Positions 2,888 through 38,134 of a stretch of DNA of 45,080 nt are shown here, piece by piece. The stretch is from positions 1-45,080 of the IMG/VR virus record IMGVR_UViG_3300033148_003978; one strand, 5' to 3'. A model generated the notes under the pieces. The model saw nothing but the letters and a program-made list of their open reading frames with translations. It did no database searches and was not told the origin of the DNA. Numbering within the stretch: the first letter of the stretch is position 1; the number at the start of each line of letters is the position of its first letter. The DNA is from a virus. The position numbers and the translations under genes are program-made.

Positions 2888-3082
2888 TTATTTGTTTGAC
2901 ATAAAGCCTTTTTCGATATCTGGCTGAAAATCGGCATAACAGCCAATAATCAGTTCCCCGATATATTTACTGCTGGTCAATTCGATTGTGTACATTGTTA
3001 TAGAATATGTAGTTGTGTCAATGGCTGTAATAATACCACGTCCGATTTTATGGATAACTTTATCACCGATTTTATGTGTCAT
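2888..3082 (-). CDS. Hypothetical small beta protein, 64 aa; first gene of the leftward operon
   Basis: MTHKIGDKVIHKIGRGIITAID... alternates hydrophobic and charged residues as in a small beta barrel (G-D-K-V-x-H-x-x-G-R-G resembles KOW/CarD-like or SH3-like folds). GAGGTGATAAA precedes the ATG. First gene after the structured leader, about 115 bases from the predicted transcription start. Confidence 0.75.
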   Translation of the reverse strand: MTHKIGDKVIHKIGRGIITAIDTTTYSITMYTIELTSSKYIGELIIGCYADFQPDIEKGFMSNK

Positions 3083-3101
3083 TTTATCACCTCAAATAAT
3101 A

Positions 3102-3197
3102 AGACCGCCGGCCCACAAACGATACCACATCGGAGGGCAGACCGGCGGCCTGAAGGATTTTAATATTCTGATTATTGTGGTATCGTTTCATAATTCT
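3102..3197 (-). promoter_or_regulatory. Structured leader RNA of the leftward operon (interleaved helices)
   Basis: Read leftward, AAACGATACCACA (3188-3176) pairs perfectly with TGTGGTATCGTTT (3129-3117), and GGCCGCCGGTC (3150-3140) pairs with GGCCGGCGGTC (3112-3102), allowing G-U pairs. The strands are ordered A-B-A'-B', so the helices form a pseudoknot or exclude each other. The 3' strand is followed by TTATTATTTG, which is U-rich. The element fills the space between the promoter at 3204-3231 and the first gene. A relative with the same topology lies at 34042-34139. Confidence 0.65.
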
Positions 3198-3203
3198 ATT
3201 GAA

Positions 3204-3231
3204 AGTATAACATATCTATCGGCCAAGTCAA
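3204..3231 (-). promoter_or_regulatory. Leftward early promoter
   Basis: On the minus strand, TTGACT (3231-3226) is followed after 16 bases by TATACT (3209-3204), a near-consensus sigma70-type promoter. Transcription should start around 3197 and read the structured leader and six or seven small genes. Host RNA polymerase is implied, since no phage RNA polymerase gene is visible. Confidence 0.75.
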
Positions 3232-34003: not shown

Positions 34004-34031
34004 TTGACAACGCCGATGTAAGTGTTATGAT
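34004..34031 (+). promoter_or_regulatory. Rightward early promoter
   Basis: TTGACA at 34004-34009, a 16-base spacer and TATGAT at 34026-34031. Transcription would begin near 34038, at the foot of a structured leader, and run through the lysozyme, recombination and replication genes to the terminator at 1718 past the window junction. Confidence 0.75.
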
Positions 34032-34041
34032 AAAGTTATGA

Positions 34042-34139
34042 ATAAGGTGCTGGATATCACGACTCATAACATAACAAAGGCCGCAGAATCTCCGACTCAA
34101 TTCGACTTCAGCATCTTATCAGGTCGGCCTGCGGTCTTT
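34042..34139 (+). promoter_or_regulatory. Structured leader RNA of the rightward early operon
   Basis: Helix A is ATAAGGTGCTG (34042-34052) with CAGCATCTTAT (34109-34119), one G-U. Helix B is AAAGGCCGCA (34076-34085) with TGCGGTCTTT (34130-34139), one G-U. Helix C, CCGAC/GTCGG (34092-34096 and 34123-34127), is inside B. A and B are interleaved, as in the leftward leader at 3102-3188. Both leaders have a first loop of about 23-25 bases, a three-base A'-to-B' link, a shared GGCCGC/GCGGTC helix with the same G-U pair, and a TATTTGA/TAATTTGA tail. Confidence 0.65.
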
Positions 34140-34165
34140 GTAATTTGATAAAAGGATATAAAAAT

Positions 34166-34588
34166 ATGTGTATTGGCAAAGGAATGATAATCAGGCGTGG
34201 TCAAATATGGCCAGATTACGTAATGAGTAGCAATGATCACCAACCTTTGGTGGAAAAATTCAAATTGGAAGATGATAAATTGATTGACCGTGATTTCGTA
34301 AGGATTGAACTTCTACCATTAAATTCATTGACTTCAATTAAACCGAAAGACTGGGAGTTCCGAGTTGACGAGGTGGGCACTCTGCCGACCTGGTTCAGAA
34401 AAACCCAAGTCGATTGGGAGTTCAAATGCAAAGAGTTGCTGGTTAAAAAAATAATACCTAATTGGGTTAAAAATGGTGTAAGCGGGTCTTTATACCTTCA
34501 AGGCACGCCGCTAAAGTCTCTCGGCCAGCTTAAATCTGTAGGTGGGTATTTATACCTTCAAGGCACGCCGCTAAAAAGGTTGCAATGA
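34166..34588 (+). CDS. Phage protein with a short leucine-rich-like repeat end, 140 aa
   Basis: ATG at 34166 follows AAAGGATATAAAA. The N-terminal ~105 residues are mixed, with several Trp (RRGQIWPDYV, KPKDWEFRV, VDWEFKC). The C-terminus has two copies of SLYLQGTPLKSL / YLYLQGTPLKRL, the phage leucine-rich repeat pattern that usually occurs in long arrays. The frame stops within the second unit, so the array may be shortened. The stop overlaps the lysozyme start (34585). Confidence 0.65.
   Translation: MCIGKGMIIRRGQIWPDYVMSSNDHQPLVEKFKLEDDKLIDRDFVRIELLPLNSLTSIKPKDWEFRVDEVGTLPTWFRKTQVDWEFKCKELLVKKIIPNWVKNGVSGSLYLQGTPLKSLGQLKSVGGYLYLQGTPLKRLQ
34489..34575 (+). repeat. Two 27-bp direct repeats, 60-bp period
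   Basis: Bases 34489-34515 and 34549-34575 are identical and encode the LYLQGTPLK parts of the leucine-rich-like repeat. The period of 60 bases equals 20 residues. Slippage between units could lengthen or shorten the protein. Confidence 0.85.
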
Positions 34589-35106
34589 AATTTCTTAATA
34601 TGGCTACTATTTTTTCCGTTGGTTTTTTAATCGGGTTATATTTACCCAGAGCGGACGTGTCATCACCCTCCTCCGAAGCTGTGGCTGGGGCGCAAAAACC
34701 CCAGTCCAGCTTTAATGATTTGCTCGATGCTATTGAATGGGTTGAAAGCAAAGGCGATGCCAACGCTGTCGGTGATAACGGCAAGGCTGTTGGAGCATTT
34801 CAAATCCACAAGATTTATATTGATGATTTGAACCGAATTTATAAGTCAAGGCATACGGACAAGTTTTCAACCCCTATTCGCTGGAGCGATTTTCACAGGA
34901 AAAGTAAAGTTTGTAGTAGGTTGATGGTGCGGGATTACTTGCGACATTATGCTACTGCTAAAAGAATTGGCAGAGAGCCAACATTAGAAGATATGGCTCG
35001 AATCCACAATGGCGGGCCGACTGGGTACAAAAAAGAATCTACCAAAAAATACTGGCAAAAAATCAAGTCCAGATTGGAGACGCAAAATGCTAAACTTGCT
35101 AAATGA
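34585..35106 (+). CDS. Lysozyme-like muralytic transglycosylase (endolysin candidate)
   Basis: 173 residues. A hydrophobic N-terminal segment (about 5-20) can act as a signal anchor, followed by a Ser/Ala linker. The catalytic-domain pattern is AIEWVESKGDANAVGDNGKA (Glu54 in the ES pair as the likely acid), GAFQIHKIYIDDLNR, then MARIHNGGPTGYKK (about 137-150). This is the GEWL/SLT-like family common in phages and PVC bacteria. It cleaves peptidoglycan at lysis. It lies near the start of the early operon, not beside the late genes, so timing may depend on membrane release. Confidence 0.8.
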   Translation: MKFLNMATIFSVGFLIGLYLPRADVSSPSSEAVAGAQKPQSSFNDLLDAIEWVESKGDANAVGDNGKAVGAFQIHKIYIDDLNRIYKSRHTDKFSTPIRWSDFHRKSKVCSRLMVRDYLRHYATAKRIGREPTLEDMARIHNGGPTGYKKESTKKYWQKIKSRLETQNAKLAK

Positions 35107-37168: not shown

Positions 37169-38134
37169 ATGGACACTGACATCCAAAAAACAGGGCCAAT
37201 ATCGCCGTTAGCGTCTGCCGCAGAGTTGGTAAGCAAAGATGGAAATATGGACGTTGCAAAATTAAAAGAACTTCTGGACGTTCAGGAAAGATGGGAAGCC
37301 AACGAAGCGAAAAAGGCATTTATGGTAGCGATGGCAGAATTTAAGGTAACCCCGCCAGAAATACTCAAAGACCAGACGGTATCGTATAAGCAAACCTCGT
37401 ACAAGCACGCCTCGTTACATAACGTAACCAGTTGTATCAATAAGGCTTTAAGCGAACACGGCCTTACAGCGTCCTGGGTAACATCGCAAGACAAAGAATT
37501 TATAAAAGTAACCTGTAAAATTACACATATTATGGGACATAGCGAAGAAACGAGCTTGACAGCCGCACCGGATACATCCGGCAGCAAGAATCCCATCCAA
37601 GCAATCGGCAGCACGGTAACTTATCTGCAACGGTACACACTGTTGGCTTTAGTAGGATTGGCAACCAGCGACCAAGATGACGATGGGGCTGAAAGCGGAA
37701 AAAATACTCCGCCAGCCTTGCCCACAATGACAACCGAAAATAAACATTGCCTGAAAGCGATTTGTGCAAAGTTGCAAGAATCACTGCCAGAGGGTAAGGT
37801 GGTTGACACCGACAAAGTAGCAAAGATTATGCTTGGCCTAAATAAGGGTGTGTATCCAAGCAAACTTGAAAAAGCTCCGGCTGCCGCCGCTATACTTATC
37901 AGTATGAAGCAACCTGACAGTTGGGCAAAAGAAACAGGCAGTGCGGCAGACGATGCGTTTGCAGCTTATTCAAAGCACTATTTTAAGGATATACCGCTTG
38001 GCCACAAGATATCTCGTGAGCGGTTCAATAGTTGTGCAGAGGGTTGCAACGTACCGGTAGATGGCACATCGGGGGCCAAATGGGCTATCGCAAATATTCC
38101 GCTTAAAAATACACTAATCGAAACGAAAGGATAG
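37169..38134 (+). CDS. ERF-family single-strand annealing protein
   Basis: 321 residues. The ERF core lies at about 45-175: KKAFMVAMAEFKVTPPEI, SYKHASLHNVTSCINKALSE, then NPIQAIGSTVTYLQRYTLLA and LVGLATSDQDDDG. It anneals complementary single strands, supporting circularisation or recombination with the YqaJ exonuclease. The C-terminal ~130 residues are less typical and may bind SSB or DNA. Confidence 0.9.
   Translation: MDTDIQKTGPISPLASAAELVSKDGNMDVAKLKELLDVQERWEANEAKKAFMVAMAEFKVTPPEILKDQTVSYKQTSYKHASLHNVTSCINKALSEHGLTASWVTSQDKEFIKVTCKITHIMGHSEETSLTAAPDTSGSKNPIQAIGSTVTYLQRYTLLALVGLATSDQDDDGAESGKNTPPALPTMTTENKHCLKAICAKLQESLPEGKVVDTDKVAKIMLGLNKGVYPSKLEKAPAAAAILISMKQPDSWAKETGSAADDAFAAYSKHYFKDIPLGHKISRERFNSCAEGCNVPVDGTSGAKWAIANIPLKNTLIETKG

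Follow-up and report, generated by a model that had tools for sequence, protein, structure and literature searches.

A family of 5'-terminal pseudoknot leader RNAs, alike in architecture and not in sequence, at promoters of an uncultured phage family

Some promoters of one uncultured phage family almost certainly belong to transcripts that open with a distinct family of pseudoknot leader RNAs. Eleven such leaders, found in ten phage lineages, carry two helices in the interleaved order A-B-A'-B' but have no helix sequence in common and do not align; to judge from their sequences, they are a new family of 5'-terminal pseudoknot leaders held together by architecture only. In this layout strand A lies at or near the predicted first nucleotides of the transcript (it begins at, or no more than about 15 nt from, the predicted start in ten leaders) and is followed by a loop rich in A and poor in G, by strand B, by a second loop made largely of pyrimidines, and by strand A', a short link and strand B', after which there mostly come a U-rich run, a ribosome binding site and a gene. 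Across the eleven, the helices measure 8-17 bp, loop 1 12-30 nt, loop 2 7-23 nt and the A'-B' link 0-10 nt. This is the geometry of an H-type pseudoknot, two interleaved helices joined by loops of sufficient length for both, and we estimate that the helices could be present together provided that A' and B' stacked into a single uninterrupted strand. No description of such a leader design was found in the openly accessible literature.

Two of the leaders lie in the window, by which we mean the whole 45,080-nt stretch of viral DNA analysed here (IMG/VR record IMGVR_UViG_3300033148_003978). Both have their helices in pseudoknot order and begin approximately at the predicted transcript start; their features are as follows.

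34004-34031 (+): rightward sigma70-type promoter, TTGACA, 16-nt spacer with GCCGAT, TATGAT; layout as in other leaders
34042-34054 (+): rightward leader, helix strand A, pairing with A' at 34107-34119
34074-34086 (+): rightward leader, helix strand B, pairing with B' at 34129-34141
34107-34119 (+): rightward leader, helix strand A', 13 bp with A, two of them G-U
34129-34141 (+): rightward leader, helix strand B', 13 bp with B, one of them G-U
34038-34148 (+): rightward leader, short open frame, ATG 6 nt past the -10 box, 36 codons, TGA 17 nt 5' of the gene start
34166-34588 (+): rightward operon, first gene, 140 aa, no family
3204-3231 (-): leftward sigma70-type promoter, TTGACT, 16-nt spacer with GCCGAT, TATACT
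3176-3188 (-): leftward leader, helix strand A, pairing with A' at 3117-3129
3142-3151 (-): leftward leader, helix strand B, extendable to 3137, pairing with B' at 3102-3111
3117-3129 (-): leftward leader, helix strand A', 13 bp with A, no mismatch
3102-3111 (-): leftward leader, helix strand B', extendable to 3116, 10 bp with B, 15 with the G-U extension
3087-3191 (-): leftward leader, short open frame, 34 codons, stop 4 nt 5' of the gene start
2888-3082 (-): leftward operon, first gene, 64 aa, no family

An earlier note on this DNA had described interleaved helices in leaders at both early promoters, and both are indeed present, at 34042-34141 and, on the minus strand, at 3188-3102. Its measurements need amendment. 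The rightward helices, given as 11 bp for A and 10 bp for B, are real and were understated, being 13 bp each; the supposed three-base link between A' and B' is 9 nt on the right and 5 nt on the left (0 with the extended helix); and the first loops, given as 23-25 bases, measure at most 19 and 24 nt. The GGCCGC/GCGGTC helix and the word CTCCGA are common to both window leaders, as was said, but such words are confined to these two, and GGCCGC/CTCCGA, considered as a family signature, is not retained by the other nine. The TTTGA tail also occurs in both, where it closes the short frame that opens close to where transcription is predicted to begin, and is not a family feature. Farther along, the rightward operon encodes a destabilase-like lysozyme, a YqaJ nuclease, an ERF annealase and an SSB; the first of these, at 34585-35106 (+), is of the invertebrate type (PF05497, E 1.5e-10).

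The note's proposal of a leader RNA family of one topology, with covarying helices, is supported. Relatives were gathered by terminase and portal alignments, longer contig parts were added, and all were scanned for interleaved helices; nine further leaders came to light, with the same helix order and unrelated helix sequences. Two copies occur in the window phage and two in G046.

G002: L015, 1831 (+)
G005: L017, 7035 (+)
G003: L009, 8854 (-)
G046a and G046b: L096, 7674 (+) and 14774 (+)
G055/G056 (identical): L098, 14453 (-)
G052: L101, 2117 (+)
G048: L106, 6819 (+)
G050: L111, 5600 (+)

When the eleven are aligned pair by pair, three or more types of pair occur at each of the eight outermost helix positions, in A and likewise in B, a variation that we read as covariation of the whole architecture. 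Rfam 15 covariance models gave no relevant match for any leader, and for the window leaders none even at permissive thresholds. In the 'phages' collection nothing matched the leader at the DNA level and all terminase matches were distant (<60% identity), and searches for relatives of the first rightward gene, of a 1948-aa protein and of the G050 gene brought none that were new. Searches for structured RNAs need conserved sequence or alignable families, and are therefore blind to leaders that keep only interleaved order and loop composition. A second, opposite leader in G003 (L009, 9518, +), with a leaderless 46-codon frame, an A helix of 8 bp and a weak B, is a possible degenerate member and was excluded from the count of eleven.

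The controls for chance were run with fixed thresholds which were picked after the first sightings, in an order of discovery partly led by the window leaders, though they were equal for the shuffles: 816 kb of sequence from the phage family contain 2,241 promoter-like sites, of which seven scored at least 52, as against none of 12,633 such sites in six order-2 Markov shuffles, where the best score was 48. With a wider A'-B' gap and a threshold of 50, the promoter-like sites of the same 816 kb (n=2,241) gave ten interleaved arrangements, one nested and no tandem, and three shuffled copies gave a single interleaved one in total (about 0.3 per genome set). Ten interleaved against one nested and no tandem means that the interleaved order has itself been kept; it is this order that is selected. 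In 291 kb of unrelated phage contigs with the GCCGAT-spacer type of promoter, there was no match at a score of 50 or more.

On the transcribed strand, G-U pairs outnumber A-C pairs by 35 to 13 over the eleven leaders under symmetric scoring, a scheme that selects another helix pair for G002; this bias points to pairing in RNA rather than DNA. The 220 nt of loop 1 consist of 49% A and 6% G, and loop 2 is 61% pyrimidine. H-type pseudoknots usually have loops rich in A in the minor groove and loops rich in pyrimidines in the deep groove, and by this analogy the leader loops would have the compositions expected where they cross the minor and deep grooves. If the transcript is cut after A', the best fold contains the full A:A' helix in all eleven leaders, and when B' is added the best nested fold turns to B:B' in nine of them; pseudoknot-free folding of the window leaders prefers the B hairpin, with A' inside its loop. 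The A/A' and B/B' strands are disjoint save for 1-2 nt in two leaders, and a classical mutually exclusive antiterminator is absent.

Where B' ends, the sequence is rich in T. Over ten positions (the last two of B' and the next eight) T makes up 56% (62/110) as compared with a background of 27%; nine leaders have at least five T in the ten, G048 and G050 have two and three, and a run of T7 or longer crosses the B' end in G002, G046b and G052. Termination cannot be universal, because no U run follows B' in G048 and G050.

Nine leaders also have an open frame beginning 6-13 nt past the -10 box (with ATG in eight and GTG in G052), G050 offering two candidate ATGs in one frame. All nine frames run through A' to within 3 nt of the B' end or beyond it, and in each of the eight framed leaders with a known gene start the stop lies between -21 and +23 nt of that start, in several cases 3' rather than 5' of it. 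Ribosomes of the 70S form bind leaderless mRNAs directly (PMC9031893). Strand A starts a few nucleotides from the start codon in most of the nine, and A:A' pairing would therefore hide the leaderless start. G046b has no such start and the frame of G048 is only four codons long, and for this reason leaderless translation cannot be the sole input. A conserved leader peptide was considered and rejected, the frames being mutually dissimilar, with a codon usage that is not gene-like (mean -0.05 versus 0.20 for genes); it would therefore be translation itself, and not the peptide, that mattered. No codon runs are common across the leader frames.

The spacer word GCCGAT was likewise rejected as a marker of the leaders, since the leaderless promoters that bear it form a broader class, most of them without pseudoknot structure. 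Promoters of the form TTGAC-N3/4-GCCGAT-N5/6-GNTATNNT, followed after 6 nt by ATG, occur in 32 viral contigs (L029-L060), far more often than the one or two matches roughly estimated for chance, and many open long leaderless genes.

The genes behind the leaders are diverse. The G046a leader precedes an HNH nuclease, and the G002 gene, which matches no family, resembles an HNH gene by eye; the others encode small proteins of no known kind, a zinc-ribbon protein and a phrog_8203 protein. Behind the G052 leader, with its T7 run, there is no protein gene directly, and a tRNA-Thr gene lies about 0.2 kb downstream; the position of this leader ahead of a tRNA gene favours action on transcription. Between the two, at L101 2250-2400 (+), lies a structured-looking stretch without an Rfam match. 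The downstream genes have nothing in common, which counts against regulation by their products. The window has its own HNH gene (617-1111), 41% identical to the gene behind the G046a leader, with an int-alpA RNA in place of the pseudoknot leader. This RNA (527-595, +; RF02996, 42 bits) stands directly 5' of the gene, an HNH-AP2 nuclease, and an open frame from upstream passes through it into the gene. Like our leaders, int-alpA RNA is promoter-proximal, and like most of them it has a U run and Shine-Dalgarno sequence after its closing helix; it differs in being nested, multi-helix and conserved in sequence, and the leaders do not match its model.

In proposing a mechanism, we tentatively favour one that we rate a little short of an even chance, namely that the leader is a co-transcriptional attenuator with leaderless translation as its override. 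Strand A', once made, would pair with A. B would thereby be shut into a loop, and the 5' end of the message, where the short leaderless frame begins in most leaders, would be buried. As B' emerges it would pair with B, as a terminator-like hairpin or a completed pseudoknot, and B:B' would lower either transcription into the gene or the gene's translation; A:A' might assist or delay termination by B:B'. A ribosome loading early on the free 5' end would hold A, B and A' open by way of the short frame and, stopping beside the gene start, would allow the gene to be expressed. Expression of the gene would thus depend on which comes first, the leaderless loading of a ribosome or the knotting of the RNA. 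Trp-type leader-peptide attenuators similarly place a short leader frame and a terminator-like, U-tailed hairpin before the first gene, as most members do here; the present leaders depart from them in the leaderless start, in having no regulatory codon runs, in a pseudoknot without strand sharing and in two members without a U run. The alternative hairpins of classical attenuators share strands, which those of our leaders do not.

A larger claim, which we regard as doubtful, is that these leaders are regulatory elements of a new type: the transcript's own 5' end is a pseudoknot strand, loading and knotting compete, the architecture is independent of both sequence and gene, and what is reported is the availability of host ribosomes. 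If the leaders work as proposed, one small module would join transcription start, leaderless translation and attenuation, and would offer a testable route by which a phage might sense how actively its host translates. The scan for promoters with interleaved helices, in which nested and tandem order are built-in controls, could be applied to other phages.

Control of translation is an unlikely alternative to attenuation, but one with a close parallel. The leader would here act post-transcriptionally: its pseudoknot, lying beside the ribosome binding site, would have its folding set by translation of the short frame and by coupling to the gene, in the manner of repZ of plasmid ColIb-P9. Leaders of the repZ type control their gene through a leader frame joined with a pseudoknot that adjoins the ribosome binding site, and by analogy these are the closest in working to the present leaders. 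Both repZ and IncL/M repA (PK-repZ) combine leader-frame translation with a pseudoknot just 5' of the ribosome binding site, a layout present in most of our leaders (G046b and G048 lack the frame), with no family match; repZ has a short conserved loop-loop pairing and an antisense RNA, whereas here there are long, variable 5'-end helices of 8-17 bp. Such leaders are cited within PMC10724649. Consistent with translational control, each of the ten leaders that precede a protein gene has its B' end only a few nucleotides 5' of the Shine-Dalgarno sequence, the short frames stop at the gene start and two leaders are without a U run; yet G052 has the full structure and its T7 run where no protein gene directly follows, the ribosome binding sites stand outside the helices, and the tails are U-rich in 9/11.

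It is decidedly unlikely that the leaders serve to protect the 5' end, a pseudoknot shielding the first nucleotides from 5'-end-dependent RNases and so giving long-lived early messages. The placing of A so near the predicted start in ten leaders and the conservation of architecture alone speak for protection, and it would suit any downstream gene, tRNA included. A simple hairpin would suffice for the purpose, however, yet nested and tandem double helices are nearly absent, and both the U-rich tails and the stops at the gene start would go unexplained.

Less probable again is autogenous control, with the protein of each operon binding its own leader pseudoknot. There is a phage precedent in gene 32 of T4, where a pseudoknot in the mRNA leader is bound by the gene's own product (PMC535899), and like our leaders that operator lies 5' of the ribosome binding site; the variation of leader sequences from gene to gene would also agree with it. 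The T4 case, however, is a single gene with a pseudoknot of about 28 nt, while here a constant architecture precedes unrelated genes (HNH nuclease, zinc ribbon, phrog_8203, tRNA), with no common binding sequence. Another pseudoknot RNA, the STAXI motif (RF01728), a repeated candidate near phage and plasmid DNA-handling genes (PMC2864571), differs in being a tandemly repeated conserved motif, and it has no match here.

The analogy drawn in the earlier note, whose interpretation as a whole is partly supported, was with the put RNAs of phage HK022. A leader RNA of that sort would bind RNA polymerase and make it resist later terminators, which we consider very unlikely for the present leaders. Like putL and putR, they are promoter-linked early phage RNAs at the 5' end of operon transcripts, with two copies in the window phage as there are two in HK022. 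The putRNAs, however, are about 70 nt long, have sequence in common and form two tandem stem-loops that bind the zinc-binding domain of the polymerase beta' subunit (PMC9378689), whereas our leaders have interleaved helices (11/11), no common sequence and, in nine of the eleven, a terminator-like, U-rich tail of their own at the gene. As both architecture and sequence differ, the put analogy is rejected.

That the inverted repeats act in DNA, as operators or recombination sites, is hardly credible, even with perfect repeats resembling repressor operators at about 28.32-28.41 kb of HK022, given the G-U bias on the transcribed strand, the asymmetric loop composition, the position 3' of the promoter and the differing repeats in one phage's two leaders. 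Those HK022 repeats (L130, 28316-28410, -; interleaved, 11 bp) call for caution, since sites in DNA may imitate the interleaved pattern. As a control for the scan, HK022 gave two promoter-free matches at scores of 50-51, these operator-like repeats and a site preceding the holin gene, and the promoter-like sites of its early region (27.7-29.3 kb) are without an interleaved leader. Interleaved helices of 13 and 12 bp lie just 5' of the HK022 holin start (37197-37264, +), the last strand including the ribosome binding site. In the leader of an unrelated phage (L043, 438-560, +), ATGCGGGG/CCCCGCAT and a short second helix are interleaved and followed by a U run, an arrangement that may be due to chance.
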